From assembly GCF_007671725.1 (NCBI RefSeq), contig NZ_VCNM01000002.1, forward strand, positions 868,001 to 932,000: DNA of 64,000 nt, written 5' to 3'. The notes beneath the pieces are model-generated. The model made no database searches and was not told the origin of the DNA. It saw nothing but the letters and a program-made list of their open reading frames with translations. The DNA is from Halorubrum depositum. GTDB lineage: Archaea; Halobacteriota; Halobacteria; Halobacteriales; Haloferacaceae. The position numbers and the translations under genes were made by a program. Positions 5,038 to 21,672 of this stretch are shown here, piece by piece. Position 1 is the first letter of the stretch, and each line of letters opens with the position of its first letter.

Positions 5038-5871
5038 ATGTCACAGCGACAGCAGTCCTTCGACGTCTCGACCCGCGACGGGATGCCCGTCCTCGGGCTC
5101 GGCACGTGGGAGAACGACGAGCCCGCTCAGTGTACGGAATCGGTGACGACGGCGCTGGAGACCGGTTACCGCCACATCGACACGGCCCAGATCTACGGCA
5201 ACGAGGCCGCCGTCGGCGACGGGATCGCCGCGGCCGACGTCGACCGCGACGACGTCTTCCTCGCGACGAAGGTGTGGATCGACCAGCTCGCGCCCGAGGA
5301 CGTGGTCGCGTCCACCCGCGAGAGCTTAGAGAAGCTCGGCACCGACTACGTCGACCTGCTGTACGTCCACTGGCCGGCGGGCGCGTACGACCCCGCGGAG
5401 ACGCTGCCCGCGTTCGCGGAGCTCCGCGACGACGGCCTGATCGACCGGATCGGCGTCTCGAACTTCGAGCCGCACCACCTCGACGCCGCGACCGACGCCC
5501 TCGGCGAGGCGCCGTTCGCGAACCAGGTGGAGATGCACCCTCTGCTCCGGCAGGAGGAGCTCCGGGAGTACGCCGACGCCAACGGCGTCGAGCTCGTCGC
5601 CTACTCCCCGCTCGCCCGCGGGAACGTGCTCGACGACCCGGCGATCACCCACATCGCCGAGAAGCACGGCGTCAGCGCCGCGCAGGTGAGCCTCGCGTGG
5701 CTCCGCGAGAAGGGCGTCACCGCCATCCCGAAGGCGACGGGCGAGGACCACATCGCCGACAACTGGGCGAGCCTCGGGCTCGACCTGGACGACGAGGACG
5801 TCGAGGAGATCGACACGCTCGGCCGGACCGACCGCCAGCTGAACCCGGACTTCGGTCCAGACTGGGAGTAG
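5038..5871 (+). CDS. aldo/keto reductase
   Basis: Soluble NAD(P)H-dependent oxidoreductase of 277 residues with a complete aldo/keto reductase barrel. The catalytic tetrad is visible as Asp48 and Tyr53 (GYRHIDTAQIYGNE), Lys78 (LATKVW) and His111 (YVHWP). The cofactor-binding end is also present (AIPKATGEDHIADN), and the length is normal for the family. It is close to the 2,5-diketo-gluconate reductase/prostaglandin F synthase branch, but the substrate cannot be read from sequence. It stands alone between the copper block and a convergent histidine kinase. Confidence 0.88.
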   Translation: MSQRQQSFDVSTRDGMPVLGLGTWENDEPAQCTESVTTALETGYRHIDTAQIYGNEAAVGDGIAAADVDRDDVFLATKVWIDQLAPEDVVASTRESLEKLGTDYVDLLYVHWPAGAYDPAETLPAFAELRDDGLIDRIGVSNFEPHHLDAATDALGEAPFANQVEMHPLLRQEELREYADANGVELVAYSPLARGNVLDDPAITHIAEKHGVSAAQVSLAWLREKGVTAIPKATGEDHIADNWASLGLDLDDEDVEEIDTLGRTDRQLNPDFGPDWE

Positions 5872-5914
5872 CGTTCGCTTCGAGCGCGACGGGGCGCCGC
5901 GTCTCGTCGCCCCG

Positions 5915-7309
5915 TCAGTCGACGACCCGAGTGAGAGTGATCGCGATCTCGTTTCCGCGGTCGGGGCCGGACTCCACCGCGACGCTGCCGTTCGAGAGCT
6001 CCACGCTCCAGTAGACGAGCCAGAACCCCAGCCCGCTGCTGTGGTACACGTCGGTCATGCCGTGGTCGCCCGTGAGCACGTCGGCCTCGACGGCCGGGAT
6101 CGGCGGGTGGTCGTCCCGGACGACGACCTCCGCGCCGGCCTGCGTCCGGCGGAGGGAAACGCTCACCGTCGGATCGACGCCGTCGGCGTGTCGGACCGCG
6201 TTCCCCAACAGTTCGGTCACCGCGGCCCGGAGCTCCGGACGCCCCTCGACCGCGACCGGCTCCGGCGTCTCGACCTCGATCGAGGCGTCCGGATACCGGT
6301 CCCGGACGGTCTCGACGCAGTCGGCGACCGCCTCGCGGAGCTCGACCCGCTCGCACTCCTGTTTCCCGGTGATGAGGTCGATGATGTCGCGTTCCTTCTC
6401 GGCGGTCTCGAGGAGCTGCTCGCCGACACGACGGATCACGGCGGTGTGCTCGGTCGACTCCGGCACCGACGACTCGAGGAGCTCCGCCGTGCCGAGGATG
6501 ACGTTGAGGTCGTTCCGGAGGTTGTGCCGGAGGAGATTGTCCATCACGACCAGCTGGCGCTCGCGCCGCCGCCGGTCGGTGACGTCCTTGGTGAACCCCG
6601 TGATGCGGACGACCTCGCCGTCGTCTTCGATCGGTTCCGCCTGCACCCAGACCCACCGGTTGTAGTTCTCTTCGGGGTTCACCCGGTACTCCATGTCGAC
6701 CGACGCCCCGGCGGCGATCCGTTCCATCGCCGCTTCGACCGCCGGGACGTCGTCCGGGTGGATCGCGTCGAGAAACCGCTGCGGATCCTCCTCGAGCTCC
6801 TCGATCGACCCGCCGTATATCTCCTCGTACGAGGGGTTCACGAACAGCACCTCCGTCCAGTCGGCGTCGAACATCCACAACACGTCGCCCGAGACGGCCG
6901 CGATCTCCCGGAGGTGCGAGGCCGTCTCCGCGTGGTCTCGCTCGGCCCGCACCCGGTCGGTGACGTCGCGGGAGCTGACGACGTACCCGTCGAGCGCGTC
7001 GTCGGTGAGGTTCGACATGCGGCTCTCCAGCCAGACCCACGAGCCGTCCGCGGTCCGGTGCCGGTACTCGACCGTCTCCTCGGCGAACCCGTCACTCGTT
7101 ATCGTTCTGTCGAAGGCGCCGCGGGCCGCCTCCCGGTCCTCCGGGTGGACGTACTCGAAGGCGTTCCCGCCGACGAGCTCCTCGGGGGAGAATCCGAGGA
7201 TCCGTTCCGCGGCCCCGTTGACGTAGGTGAATCGCCCCGCCTCGTCCAGCAGGGCGATCTTGTCCTGCGCCTGGTCGAGCAGGAGGCCGAGCGGCTCGGA
7301 CCCGTTCAT
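5915..7309 (-). CDS. PAS-PAS sensor histidine kinase
   Basis: Cytoplasmic two-component sensor of 464 residues with no membrane helix. PAS domain 1 spans about 10-120 (FTYVNGAAERILGFSPEEL, ending DVTDR) and PAS 2 about 132-246 (ending KDVTDRRRRE). The dimerisation box holds the phosphoacceptor His262 in LLRHNLRNDLNVILG, a form common in haloarchaeal kinases. The ATPase domain has its N box (ELLGNAVRHADG, about 366-377) and a final SSGLGFWLVYW. The G1 box is poor: DDHPPIP at about 399-405 replaces the usual DxGxGIP. No response regulator lies beside it, so its partner and signal are unknown. Confidence 0.88.
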   Translation of the reverse strand: MNGSEPLGLLLDQAQDKIALLDEAGRFTYVNGAAERILGFSPEELVGGNAFEYVHPEDREAARGAFDRTITSDGFAEETVEYRHRTADGSWVWLESRMSNLTDDALDGYVVSSRDVTDRVRAERDHAETASHLREIAAVSGDVLWMFDADWTEVLFVNPSYEEIYGGSIEELEEDPQRFLDAIHPDDVPAVEAAMERIAAGASVDMEYRVNPEENYNRWVWVQAEPIEDDGEVVRITGFTKDVTDRRRRERQLVVMDNLLRHNLRNDLNVILGTAELLESSVPESTEHTAVIRRVGEQLLETAEKERDIIDLITGKQECERVELREAVADCVETVRDRYPDASIEVETPEPVAVEGRPELRAAVTELLGNAVRHADGVDPTVSVSLRRTQAGAEVVVRDDHPPIPAVEADVLTGDHGMTDVYHSSGLGFWLVYWSVELSNGSVAVESGPDRGNEIAITLTRVVD

Positions 7310-16614: not shown

Positions 16615-18990
16615 TCAGCGCACCGAGTCGAGGAGGAGCCGCTGTTCGGTCCGCTTCACCTCGTGTTGTACGTCGCGGACGGCGTCGATGTTCGCGGAGA
16701 TGGAGGAGACGCCCTCCTCGACGAGGAAGTCGACCATCTCCGACTTGGAGCCGGCCTGCCCGCAGATGCTCGTGTCGACGCCGAGCTCGCGGCACGTCTC
16801 GATCGTGTCGCCGATCAGCTGGAGCACCGCGGGGTGGAGCTCGTCGAACCGGCCGGCGACGTGCTCGTTGTTGCGGTCGACCGCCAGCGTGTACTGCGTG
16901 AGGTCGTTGGTGCCGAAGGAGGCGAAGTCGATCCCGGCGTTCGCCAGCTCCTCGATCTGCAGCGCGCTCGCGGGCGTCTCGATCATCACGCCCCAGCGGT
17001 GCGTCTCGGGGTCGATGCCGGCGTCGCGCATGTGGCCCGTGATCGCTTCGACGTCGGCCGCGTCGTTGACGAGAGGGAACATCACCTCAAGGTTGTCGTA
17101 CCCCATGTCGAAGAGCCGCGCGAACGCCGCGAGCTCCTGCCGGAACGGGTCGGGCTTGTCGAGGCTGCGCCGGATCCCGCGCCAGCCGAGCATCGGGTTG
17201 TGCTCGTTCGGCTCGCCCTCGCCGCCCTCCAGCTCGCGGAACTCGTCGGTGGGCGCGTCGATGGTGCGCACGCGGACCGGCCGCGGGTAGAACTCGTCGG
17301 CGACGCGGCGAACGCCCTCGATCAGCTCGTCCTGATACGCGCGGGCGCCGTGGTCGGCGATGTACTTCTCGGGCGTCTTCCCGAGCGAGAGCACCATGTG
17401 CTCGATCCGGAGGAGCCCGACCCCGTCGGCGCCCGTCGCGGCCGCGCGCTCGGCCGCCTCGGGGATCGAGACGTTCACCTTCACCTCCGTCGCCGTCATC
17501 GGCTTCACCGGCGTCTCGGGGCGGGCCGCCTCCACGGGCTCGAACTCCTCGCCGGACTCGGCCTCGGCGTCGGCCCCGGCGCGCACGGTCCCCTTGTCCC
17601 CGTCGAGGGTGACCTGCTGGCCGTCCTCGAGCAGCCGCGTCCCGTTCCCGGTGCCGACGACGGCCGGGACGCCGAGCTCGCGGGAGATGATCGCGGCGTG
17701 GCTCGTCATCCCGCCCTCGTCGGTGACGATCCCCGCGGCGCGTTTCATCGCCGGGACCATGTCCGGCATCGTCATCTCCGTGACCATCACGTCGCCCTCC
17801 TGGACCTGGTCGAGGTGGTCGAGCTTGTGGACGATCCGGACCGCCCCGGAGACGACCCCCGGACTGGCGCCGAGCCCGTCGACGAGGACGTCCTCGTCCG
17901 ACCCGGCGGTTCCGCCGTTGGCCGCGCCGGGCTGGCCAGACGCCGCGTCCCCGGCGGTGGACTTTCTCGGTGTCTCGCCGCCGGTTCCGCCCGCATCCGC
18001 GTCGCCCTCGTCGCCCTCGTCGCCCTCGTCGCCCGCGTCCTCCTGAATCGTCGTGATCGGGCGCGACTGGAGCATGTAGATCTCGCCCTCGCGGATCGCC
18101 CACTCGACGTCTTGAGGGGTCCCGTAGTGGTCCTCGACGCGCTCGCCGAGCGCGACCAGCTCCTCGATCTCCGCGTCGGAGAGGACCCGCGCGGTGCGGC
18201 GCTCCTCGTCGACGTCGAGCTGGACGGTCTCGCCCGTCTCGTCGTCTTTCACCATCTCCACCTTCTTGTCCGCGACAGTGACATTTTCGACGGCGCCGCG
18301 TTCGCGGTCGTACACGTAGTTGTCGGGCGAGACCGTGCCGGAGACGACCGCCTCGCCGAGCCCCCACGCGGCCTCGATGGTGATCTGCGGATCACCGGTC
18401 GAGGGGTGGCTGGTGAACATCACGCCGGACTTCTCGGCGTCGACCATCCGCTGGACGACGACCGCGATGTCGACGTCGGCGTGCGGGAACCCGCGTTGCT
18501 GGCGGTAGTAGATCGCCCGCTGGGTGAACAGCGACGCCCAACACTCCTTCACCCGGCGCAGCAGGTCGTCCTCGCGGACGTTGAGGAACGTCTCCTGCTG
18601 GCCGGCGAACGAAGAGTCCGGGAGGTCCTCGGCCGTCGCGGAGGAGCGCACGGCGACGAACGCCTCGTCGTCCCCGTCGCCCATCGAGCGGTACCGTTCC
18701 AGGATCTCCTCGCGGACCTCCTCGGGGAACGGCGTCTCCAGGATCAGCTCTTCGGCGCGCTCCTCGGCCGCGCGGAGCGCGGCGGAGTCCTCGGGGTCGA
18801 CGTCGACGGCCGAGAACAGCTCCTCGTCGATCCCCGCCTCCTCGATGAAGGTCCGGTACGTGCCCGCGGTGACGGCGAATCCCGGGGGAACCGGGAGTCC
18901 GGCACCGATGAGTTCACCGAGCGAAGCGGCCTTCCCGCCGACGGTCCCGACGTCGTCGGCGTCGACGTCCTCCAGCCAGAGTACTGCCAT
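16615..18990 (-). CDS. ppsA: phosphoenolpyruvate synthase
   Basis: Converts pyruvate, ATP and water to phosphoenolpyruvate, AMP and phosphate, the entry step of gluconeogenesis. The 791 residues comprise an ATP-binding domain (1-320, starting [28 protein letters not shown]), a phosphohistidine domain with His431 in [21 protein letters not shown], and a PEP/pyruvate-binding barrel ending in Cys743 ([11 protein letters not shown]). Between the first two domains lies a halophile-specific disordered linker (about 315-370) with EGD repeats. Length matches the family apart from this linker. The promoter upstream contains a TrmB-like operator, consistent with activation when sugar is absent. Confidence 0.95.
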
Positions 18991-19335
18991 TCGTGTACCC
19001 GGAGGATCCGCGAGCCGACCTATGAAGCTTCCGGCCGAAGAAACGGTGAATAAAAGATTACTCAGTCGCGAGTTACGGGCGGGCCGAGGGGCGCGGCCGG
19101 AACCGGACGTCGCAGTCGCTTAATGGATCAAACGCGGGAAGCGGGTCGCAGAGCGCGCCGAAGAGTCGGTCGCAGAGCGCGAACGTGGGGAGAGGGCCGA
19201 AGCAGTCAGGGAACGACGAACCGTCTGTCGGTTCGTACCCCGTCATTCATTCCCGTCTATCCTATACTTACCTCCCAACAGGGGAATCAGCCCCAGTAAC
19301 GTGTTACAGGTGTTGTAACACCACTCTCCGGACGG
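18991..19335. promoter_or_regulatory. ppsA upstream region: TATA box, TrmB-like operator and an inverted repeat
   Basis: No gene is seen in these 345 bp. Reading toward ppsA, CTTTTATT (19056-19049) is a TATA box about 60 nt before the ATG. Immediately upstream, AACT-N7-GAGTA (19073-19059 on the minus strand) matches the TACT-N7/8-GAGTA motif of the haloarchaeal sugar-responsive regulator TrmB at all but one position. Sites upstream of TATA are the activating configuration. Near the other end GTGTTAC (19301-19307) and GTAACAC (19315-19321) form an inverted repeat with a 7-nt spacer, 14 bp past the stop of the next gene. Confidence 0.55.
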
Positions 19336-20133
19336 TCAGTCGTCGACGAGCCGCTCGCGCTCCGCGCGGAGGAGCCGCTCCCAGACGCCGAACAGCCGGC
19401 TGTTCAGGCCGTATCGGTCGTTCACCCGGCGGACCCACGCGTCGTCGGCGAACAGGAGGCGTTGGAACCGACGGACGCGCGGCGAGAGCGACGCCCGGTC
19501 GCCGGCGTAGTAGGACAGCGACTCCTCGCGGGTCCGCTCAACGAGGGCGGACGGGACGTCGACCCCGTCGGCCGCGGCGGCGTGGACGAACCACTCCAGA
19601 TGTAACAGCGCGTCGGCGAGGAGAAAGCGGTCGCGGAACCCCGAGACGCGAGCGAGCGCCGGCCGGCCGTCGATCGTCACGTCCCGAGGGCGGGAGAACC
19701 GCGGGGCGGTCACCGTCACGCCGGCGGCTCCCGCGACCGCGGCGGCGACGCGTCGGAGGCGCCAGTCGCCGTACCGCACCGGCGCGAGGAGCGCGAGCTC
19801 GTACCACGTCGGCAGCCACTCGCAGTAGGGCTCGGAGAAGGCGCCGTCGGCGAGCAGCGTCGCCGCGACCGACCGCGCCTCGGCGGGCGACAGCGTCGCG
19901 TGGTCGGTCCGGAGCCGGTCGACGACCCGCGTGCCGTCGATCGCGTCGACACCGGCGAGCCCCATGCCGTCGGCGACGTGCCGGGTGTACGCGCGGCTCG
20001 CCGCGTACCAGTCCGCGAAGTCGGCGGGGCCCGTCAGCCGGAGGAGTCGGAGGACCGTGATGCCTCGGCTACGTCCGCGGCCGACAAAACCGCTCCGCTC
20101 AACGCTCTGGAGTACGACCGAGTTCGGCCTCAC
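19336..20133 (-). CDS. protein of unknown function, third gene of the MinD-like operon
   Basis: Function unknown; up to 265 residues, soluble and mostly helical. Features: FADWYAASRAYTRHVADGMGLAGVDAIDG near the N-terminus, CEWLPTWYELALLAPVRYGDWRLRRVAAAVAGAAGV in the middle (hydrophobic but not clearly membrane), a paired ALLHLEWFVHAAAADGVDVPSALVE helix, and an Arg-rich end (LNSRLFGVWERLLRAERERLVDD). The only in-frame start is GTG 20133, giving a 35-bp overlap with the upstream gene; the true start may differ. Being the last of three same-strand overlapping genes, it probably works with the MinD-like ATPase. Confidence 0.65.
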   Translation of the reverse strand: MRPNSVVLQSVERSGFVGRGRSRGITVLRLLRLTGPADFADWYAASRAYTRHVADGMGLAGVDAIDGTRVVDRLRTDHATLSPAEARSVAATLLADGAFSEPYCEWLPTWYELALLAPVRYGDWRLRRVAAAVAGAAGVTVTAPRFSRPRDVTIDGRPALARVSGFRDRFLLADALLHLEWFVHAAAADGVDVPSALVERTREESLSYYAGDRASLSPRVRRFQRLLFADDAWVRRVNDRYGLNSRLFGVWERLLRAERERLVDD

Positions 20134-20779
20134 CGGCGTCGGCGTCGCCGGAGTCGTCCGAGAGCGTCGCGTCGAGCCCCCACTCGTCGGCGCGCTCGGC
20201 CGCCTCCTCCCGCGCCTGCTCGCGTATCGCCTCGATCCGGTCGTCGTCCGCGAGGAACGCCGCGACGGCGTCGGCGTCGTCCGCCTCCGGGTCGGTCAGC
20301 CGCTCGTCGGGCGCCCGCTCGCGGGTGCGGTCGGCGAGCGACGGGTCGTCCGCGAGTTCCGTCGCCGCCGCGCCCGGCGCGACGCGGAGCGCGTCCGTCT
20401 CGTGGGCCGCGTCGAGTCCGCCGTCGTCGACCGCGTACAGCTCGACGCGGTACGGGCCGGGCACCGCGAGCTCGGCGAGCGCGTCGGGGCCGCCGCTGTC
20501 GCTCACCGTGTTGTACGCGAGCACGGGAACCCCGTCCGCGAAGGTGAGGACGCCGCGCGCGTCCCCCTCCAACAGGAGCGTCTCCTGCGGGACGAGCGTC
20601 GCGTAGCCGGTCAGCTCGCGGTCCAGCGCCCGCGAGAGCGTCGTGGCCACGTCGGAGACGACCCGCGATCGGAGGAGGGTCCCGCGGGGGATCCGGAGCT
20701 CCGGCGCGTCGCTCGATTCCCCCCTCCCGTCTCCCCTCGGTTCCGCCGACTCTCCCGTCCCGTCTGCGGAACCCGTCAT
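20099..20779 (-). CDS. protein of unknown function, possible PATAN/DUF4388-like domain, MinD operon
   Basis: Function unknown; 226 acidic residues. A charged, Gly/Ser-rich N-terminus (1-28) precedes a folded region (about 29-130). Within it, LTGYATLVPQETLLLEG, GVLTFADGVPVLAYNT, DALAELAVPGPYRVELY follow the pattern of PATAN/DUF4388 domains (G-x-L-x-F-x-x-G-x-P-V-x-A... then G-x-Y-x-x-x-x), found in bacterial signalling proteins near small GTPases and ParA-type ATPases. This is pattern reading only. The C-terminal third is Asp/Ala-rich with a probable helix (AAFLADDDRIEAIREQAREEAAE). Its ATG overlaps the stop of the MinD-like gene by 4 bp. Confidence 0.7.
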   Translation of the reverse strand: MTGSADGTGESAEPRGDGRGESSDAPELRIPRGTLLRSRVVSDVATTLSRALDRELTGYATLVPQETLLLEGDARGVLTFADGVPVLAYNTVSDSGGPDALAELAVPGPYRVELYAVDDGGLDAAHETDALRVAPGAAATELADDPSLADRTRERAPDERLTDPEADDADAVAAFLADDDRIEAIREQAREEAAERADEWGLDATLSDDSGDADAGEAELGRTPER

Positions 20780-21543
20780 GGCGTGTCCGGCACGACCGCG
20801 CTCCGGAACCGGTCGGCGACCGCGTCGCCGTCGCCGTCGCGCACGTCGAGCCGGGCCGCCGCCCGTCGGTAGCCGGCCGCCGCGTCGCTCTCCGGCGCGT
20901 GCGCGAGGAGGGGTTCGCCGGCTCGACGCGCCGCCCTGACCACGTCGCTGTCGGGGACGCGTGCGAGCACCGGCCCGCCGAAGTGGCGCTCGGCCTGCTC
21001 GGCCACGTCCGCGGCATCGTCCCGGACCTTGTTGAACAGGACGCCCGCCGTCTCGGTGCCGTACGAGCGGGCGTACTCCTGTACCTTCAGCCCGTCAGAG
21101 AGCGCGGGGATCGTCGGTTCGACGACGACGACGACCCGATCCGCGAGGACGACGGGGAGGACCGCCGACTTGGAGCCGAGCGCGGCCGGCGAGTCGAGCA
21201 GGAGCACGTCGGTGTCGCTCGCGAGCTCGGCGACGACGTCCCGGAGCCGTCCCGGCTCGGCTGCCTCGAACCCCGCGAGCGACGTGCCGCAGGGGACGAC
21301 CGAGAGCCCGAACCGGTCGTACGTCGCCTCCGCGACGTCGGTCGCGGTCCCCTCGACGAGTAAGTCGTGGAGGGTGACCGCCGCGTCGTCGAGCCCGGCG
21401 TGAAAGAGGAGGTTCGCCATCCCCGTGTCGGCGTCGACGACGGTGACGTCGTGCTCGTCGGCCAACGCCATCCCGAGCGCGAGCGTGCTCGTCGTCTTGC
21501 CCGTGCCGCCCTTCCCGCTGGCGACCGCGAACGCCTCGACCAT
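20776..21543 (-). CDS. MinD/ParA-family ATPase
   Basis: 255-residue P-loop ATPase of the MinD/ParA family, proteins that dimerise with ATP and position other molecules in the cell. Deviant Walker A is ASGKGGTGKTTSTLALG (about residues 8-24); switch I-type VVDADTGMANL and Walker B-type LLLDSPAALGS follow, as does the NKV base-recognition motif (FNKVRDD). The C-terminus (RRAAARLDVRDGD...) shows no clear amphipathic membrane-targeting helix, so it may not bind membranes like bacterial MinD. ATG 21543 is chosen over GTG 21549. Haloarchaea carry several MinD paralogs, at least one positioning archaella and pili; which paralog this is cannot be told. Confidence 0.88.
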   Translation of the reverse strand: MVEAFAVASGKGGTGKTTSTLALGMALADEHDVTVVDADTGMANLLFHAGLDDAAVTLHDLLVEGTATDVAEATYDRFGLSVVPCGTSLAGFEAAEPGRLRDVVAELASDTDVLLLDSPAALGSKSAVLPVVLADRVVVVVEPTIPALSDGLKVQEYARSYGTETAGVLFNKVRDDAADVAEQAERHFGGPVLARVPDSDVVRAARRAGEPLLAHAPESDAAAGYRRAAARLDVRDGDGDAVADRFRSAVVPDTP

Positions 21544-21672
21544 GCGCACACCTGTCCGGTCGCTCGGCTAAAGCCTGTCCATCGCGAATCCCACCCATCG
21601 CGGGCGTGAGGGAGCGCGGCTACGGCCGACTCCACCGCACAGCGTTTTGCCGTTCGGCGCCAAACGGCGACC

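Follow-up and report, generated by a model that had tools for sequence, protein, structure and literature searches.

Described Systems

Non-canonical start codons are already known. The AUU start of infC, the gene of IF3, limits expression, and the gene product senses its own start codon. In Escherichia coli, this AUU start is reportedly described in 1987 papers by Butler and by Brombach, both listed among the references of PMC9845219. Haloarchaea initiate translation mainly on leaderless mRNAs, for which passages of a review name AUG, GUG, or UUG as starts (PMC7531240). For L12ae of the archaeon Staphylothermus marinus, an ATC start is proposed by alignment in an excerpt of PMC2678158. In Haloferax volcanii, 118 native leaderless GUG transcripts, a share given as both 6% and 9%, show lower coverage according to the excerpted text of PMC4983044. 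Among the matches listed by searches of open-licence PMC text, none describes an AUC start for Halorubrum or for a leaderless archaeal mRNA.

MinD2 (HVO_0595) and its partner HVO_0596 form a pair that is conserved in haloarchaea and has been deleted and imaged in Haloferax. Deletion of minD2 leads to altered shape and motility, and deletion of HVO_0596 is without phenotype, as stated in the excerpted portion of PMC11588486. The Haloferax genes ftsZ2 and cdrS correspond to HVO_0581 and HVO_0582, respectively (PMC8406309, in part).

The MinD2 Pair of Halorubrum depositum

The window is a stretch of 64,000 nucleotides from Halorubrum depositum. The locus contains three open reading frames, all on the minus strand: the MinD gene (21543-20776), ORF2 (20779-20099), and ORF3, which the ORF finder calls from a GTG at 20133 to 19336. 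All three are real, and the picture of one new three-part module, as drawn in a sequence-only reading of this DNA, is wrong. The locus is very probably made up of two transcription units, a MinD2/HVO_0596-type pair and an independent leaderless ORF3 that opens with AUC. The features of the first unit are the following.

20776..21543, minus strand: MinD2 ortholog of 255 aa with the deviant Walker A motif GKGGTGKTT and an ATG start (ATG in all loci examined)
21569..21572, minus strand: TATA-like element of the MinD2 promoter (-29 to -26), with an A/T frequency of 1.00 at -28 to -26 in 28 distinct Halorubrum sequences
20099..20779, minus strand: ORF2, HVO_0596-type partner of MinD2, 226 aa, with a 4-nt overlap with MinD2 and synteny with the pair in the excerpted PMC11588486

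The gene at 20776-21543 (minus strand) had been read as a MinD-family ATPase, which matches to CbiA and archaeal MinD models bear out. The match to TIGR01969 (minD_arch) shows an E value of 4e-55 and 186.7 bits, under the model cut-off of 201.75, and the closest solved structures are the archaeal MinD entries 1hyq, 1ion, and 1g3q. Orthologs are contained in 91 of the 145 class genomes, comprising the window's own copy, 89 others at 63 to 97% identity, and a broken copy in genome G056. This group is distinct from the other MinD paralogs in the same 145 genomes, for which the next matches reach at most 46% identity. None of the 36 genomes sampled from family f4 contains MinD2, and plasmid searches gave two distant matches only.

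ORF2 follows MinD2 closely. The overlapping stop and start codons noted previously are confirmed for this pair, with the MinD stop overlapping the ORF2 ATG by 4 nt. The ORF2 start lies within 10 nt of the MinD2 stop in 41 of 41 loci examined (4-nt overlap in 36), a count in which the start nearest to the MinD2 stop was chosen and which includes two genomes twice. Of the 91 MinD2-bearing class genomes, 89 contain an ORF2 homolog, compared to none of the other 54. Genomes G012 and G067 are the sole sampled ones with MinD2 and no detected ORF2, which is either lost or diverged there. No match to ORF2 was obtained in plasmid searches. As had been said of both partners, neither ORF2 nor ORF3 belongs to a Pfam or NCBIfam family; the homologs of both lack a credible Pfam match, and ORF3 also has no family in PADLOC or PHROGs. 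A resemblance of the second protein to PATAN/DUF4388 had been suggested but was not recovered: none of 40 ORF2 homologs matches the Pfam model up to an E value of 10, with HMMER filters dropping most weak matches. In fold comparisons, the best VIA Z score of ORF2 is 6.0 (rmsd of 3.1 over 80 aligned residues) with an unrelated protein as the target, and Foldseek gave no match at an E value of ≤0.001.

In genome G078, ∼12 kb and several conserved genes separate the MinD2/ORF2 pair from ftsZ2, an RHH gene, and a small gene that occupies the cdrS position. The labels RHH and cdrS, as well as the cobalamin-type label of two of the intervening genes, are tentative readings from sequence and position. 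The grouping of MinD2 with the RHH gene, the cdrS-position gene, and ftsZ2 agrees with that of HVO_0595 to HVO_0582/0581. In the window's own genome, the pair lies ∼206 kb from cdrS-ftsZ2. Because synteny and pairing match Haloferax, the ATPase and ORF2 of the window are assigned on these grounds as the MinD2/HVO_0596-type pair. The two systems share an archaeal MinD, a small partner directly behind it, a haloarchaea-wide occurrence, and a position near cdrS-ftsZ2 (excerpted PMC11588486), with the equivalence drawn from synteny and gene pairing. ORF3, in contrast, goes unmentioned in the excerpted text of PMC11588486. The refuting condition set in the sequence-only reading holds in part: by its synteny, the ATPase is the characterized MinD2, with effects on cell shape and motility.

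ORF3 as a Separate Gene

The second transcription unit consists of ORF3 and its promoter, with the following features.

19336..20061, minus strand: ORF3, conserved all-helical protein of 241 aa, from the proposed AUC start to the stop
20059..20061, minus strand: AUC codon proposed as the start (coding-strand ATC), with ATC in 52 of 52 Halorubrum genomes versus 77 GTG and 1 ATG among 78 others
20070..20071, minus strand: TA at -10/-9 of the ORF3 promoter, with an A/T frequency of 1.00 at -10 in 38 distinct sequences
20086..20089, minus strand: TTTT resembling a TATA box in the ORF3 promoter (-28 to -25 relative to ATC), with A/T frequencies of 1.00 at -28 to -26 and 0.74 at -25
20131..20133, minus strand: upstream GTG, the ORF-finder start for ORF3, unconserved, with protein conservation missing upstream of ATC

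Homologs of ORF3 are confined to the family of the window, Haloferacaceae, with 42 of 145 class genomes containing one; a profile search gave the same 42 genomes as the single sequence and no reach beyond the family. Within the family, 130 of 170 genomes contain a homolog, including 52 of 52 Halorubrum genomes. The structural model (pLDDT of 94.5) is nearly all helical, with helices from residue 3 onward. ORF3 has no sequence match in the PDB and no Foldseek match at an E value of ≤0.001 among PDB and viral models. Alignments to a ferritin-like fold are weak (VIA Z of 4.2 and rmsd of 6.1 over 121 residues, with no Foldseek hit at an E value of ≤0.001), a Z score of about 4 being usual for helical bundles.

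A single operon for spatial organization, built from an uncharacterised MinD and two dedicated partners, would fit the position of ORF3 in 33 of 37 sampled genomes with both ORF3 and MinD2 (including one with MinD2 only as a fragment), where it follows ORF2 downstream on the same strand within ∼3.3 kb. This reading is nevertheless highly improbable in view of the distribution of ORF3 and of the prior characterization of MinD2/HVO_0596. Five of the 42 genomes with ORF3 contain no MinD2 (G054, G066, G075, G109, and G124), a sixth, G056, contains MinD2 only as a fragment, and in four further genomes (G048, G080, G135, and G142), ORF3 is located away from MinD2. Ten genomes of the family contain MinD2 and no ORF3. 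Since ORF3 is found without MinD2 or away from it, the trio is not a module; of the claimed three-protein arrangement, the MinD-type ATPase with its dedicated partner remains. ORF3 is a separate gene with its own promoter and an occurrence independent of MinD2. Its placement in one operon is not confirmed for the window, where a promoter belongs to the ATC at 20061-20059, and intervening genes are found in some relatives. The promoter segment of ORF3 is intact in all four loci with insertions (L075, L084, L086, and L093).

Several single loci show further rearrangements. At G056:C1:2327882-2328576, MinD2 and ORF2 seem fragmented, one of them with internal stops, and the adjoining ORF3 is intact. 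Locus L075 contains a transposase-like insertion of low G+C content (52% in the printed segment) between ORF2 and ORF3 at 5585-6312. The same extra gene separates ORF2 and ORF3 in the Halorubrum loci L084 (2140-2898), L086 (4417-5223), and L093 (5681-6544); its small product, judged by eye, is HTH-like with a hydrophobic tail. In G080 and G135, ORF3 adjoins the RHH-cdrS-ftsZ2 genes.

The Proposed Start Codon of ORF3

The start codon is the real oddity at this locus and had been overlooked in the sequence-only reading, which placed ORF3 as a third cistron with an overlapping start. That start, the GTG at 20133 with a 35-nt overlap, is unconserved. In the alignment, conservation of ORF3 begins abruptly at (I/V)(T/S)VL. 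The first conserved codon is ATC in all 52 Halorubrum genomes and GTG in 77 of 78 genes outside the genus; the sole ATG is that of G255:C214 (L270). A smaller count on fewer loci, which omits L074 and L097, two Halorubrum loci with no ORF3 alongside, gives ATC in 38 of 38 distinct Halorubrum sequences and GTG in 26 of 26 distinct others. Control genes of the same loci all start with ATG, with 29 of 29 for MinD2, 21 of 21 for the MBL gene, and 24 of 24 for ppsA; this comparison covered 29 loci, dropped those without a placed start, and yielded none for ORF2. As ATC is the usual isoleucine codon in ORF3 genes (171 of 186), the constancy of its third base says little. The tree fits a single change to ATC on the Halorubrum stem, with a branch support of only 13.

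Coding constraint sets in at the same position. The pN/pS ratio of codons 2 to 8 is 0.12 in frame and >3 in the other frames, compared to 1.21 for the 45 nt upstream of ATC (38 distinct sequences each). For codons 2 to 31, it is 0.34 versus 0.37 for the remainder of the gene in 52 genomes. When start codons are ignored, a model of codon usage fitted to this genome finds coding to begin at 20064, which is one codon away from ATC (20061). The first bases of ORF3 echo the 3′ end of 16S rRNA, a similarity judged coincidental because codon 2 varies.

The start could alternatively be canonical throughout Halorubrum, with an upstream GTG or ATG in some species and an internal ATG at codon 33 in others. 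Upstream canonical codons do exist in some genomes, including the window with an in-frame GTG 24 codons upstream of the ATC, and in most cases, the next canonical codon after ATC is an ATG at codon 33 (32 codons further on). This alternative is unlikely. Apart from the unconstrained protein sequence of the upstream stretch, an in-frame stop with no ATG, GTG, or TTG between it and the ATC blocks the frame in 32 of 52 Halorubrum genomes (within 40 codons in 27); the remaining 20 have an upstream in-frame canonical codon or no stop within the stretch examined. The internal start, in turn, would cost the protein 32 residues under constraint and, with them, most of the first long helix, which the confident model predicts for residues 12 to 33, and since codons 2 to 31 are constrained like the remainder, the stretch before the ATG at codon 33 is translated. 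Another non-canonical route, by a near-cognate codon other than ATC or by frameshifting from ORF2, is barely credible. The 3′ end of ORF2 overlaps the upstream frame in some species; however, genes or the transposase-like insertion separate ORF2 from ORF3 in the four loci named above, and the upstream sequences inspected contain no further near-cognate codon that is conserved. Initiation at AUC is the most likely start of ORF3 across Halorubrum.

Promoter and Probable Leaderless Transcription

Haloarchaeal promoters are described with a TATA motif of TTWT and a -10 motif of WW (PMC4983044, in the excerpted text). The A/T profile of the ORF3 promoter was taken from the 38 distinct Halorubrum sequences with positions relative to ATC. 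An A/T frequency of 1.00 at -28 to -26 is likewise found upstream of the ATG of MinD2 (28 distinct sequences) and the MBL gene (20 distinct sequences) from the same loci, which show frequencies at -10 of 0.71 and 1.00, respectively. The ORF3 promoter score is 3.9 in the window and ranges from 1.8 to 7.3 in 44 Halorubrum loci (median of 5.0), compared to a random 99% level of 1.5. Outside Halorubrum, the ORF3 promoter is weaker, with A/T frequencies of 0.62 to 0.81 at -28 to -26 in 26 sequences. The TATA and -10 elements at leaderless spacing argue that the mRNA most likely has its 5′ end on the A of AUC and would thus be leaderless.

Leaderless spacing is not universal, since the transcription start site of Haloferax minD2 lies 28 bp upstream of the start codon, as given in a figure legend of PMC11588486 within the excerpted part. 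The ppsA gene lacks the A/T signal at -28 to -26. Its start in the window (18990-19060) has no TATA at -28 and a T-rich box further upstream, so ppsA is probably a leadered gene.

Proposed Mechanism and Comparison with Known Starts

Sequence, conservation, promoter spacing, and coding constraint are observed; the 5′ end, initiation at AUC, low expression, and the purpose of the latter are inferred. With a TATA box at -28 and a WW at -10, the mRNA would have its 5′ end on the A of ATC. The ribosome would start at the 5′-terminal AUC, presumably by near-cognate pairing of the usual initiator Met-tRNA with this codon, at low efficiency. A small helical protein would thus be made steadily but in small amounts, its level being held down. 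Relatives use nearly exclusively GUG, and the ancestor of Halorubrum may have gone one step further, to AUC. Because GUG is found in 77 of 78 genes outside the genus and AUC throughout it, ORF3 seems selected for low output, and AUC has probably been fixed genus-wide to hold expression low. Leaderless GUG made from AUG is translated at 2.6% or undetectably, as cited in the excerpted PMC4983044, so AUC might be weaker still.

The feature shared with infC of E. coli is a non-canonical AUN start that limits expression, as proposed here for ORF3. The E. coli mRNA, however, is leadered and bacterial, starts with AUU, and has a known product, whereas ORF3 is archaeal, starts with AUC, and has no assigned product function. 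With L12ae of S. marinus, ORF3 shares an archaeal ATC start found by alignment; the excerpt of PMC2678158 gives it one sentence on one genome, compared to 52 genomes, promoter spacing, and constraint tests for ORF3. The leaderless GUG transcripts of H. volcanii likewise have a weak non-AUG start, which is typical of low-abundance transcripts there, whereas AUC is missing from the start codons discussed in the excerpted text of PMC4983044. No genus-wide AUC on a leaderless mRNA appears among the matches listed from the literature.

By analogy to infC, the weak start could also serve as a sensor, with ORF3 encoding, or being under the control of, a factor that determines how stringently start codons are selected on leaderless mRNAs. 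AUC, or GUG elsewhere, would then close a feedback loop comparable to the one between IF3 and its AUU, in a domain that lacks IF3; this reading is very unlikely. If true, a natural genus-wide AUC start would provide a ready test of the requirements for 5′-terminal start codons, and standard gene callers would mis-start or truncate ORF3. For the locus itself, the analysis revises the idea of a MinD module with three parts.

Candidate AUC Starts in a Genome Sample

The use of AUC beyond ORF3 was assessed in a genome sample of 464 kb, comprising the window and 20 further stretches with 387 predicted genes. A first scan of these genes found 20 without a near canonical start, and in none of these is a near-cognate codon preceded by a TATA at -28; the scan is insensitive, as ORF3 itself went unflagged. 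In a scan scored by promoter, the ATC of ORF3 ranks third of 387. The two sites ranked above it were dismissed by inspection, one having an ATG at the coding onset and the other a nearby TTG.
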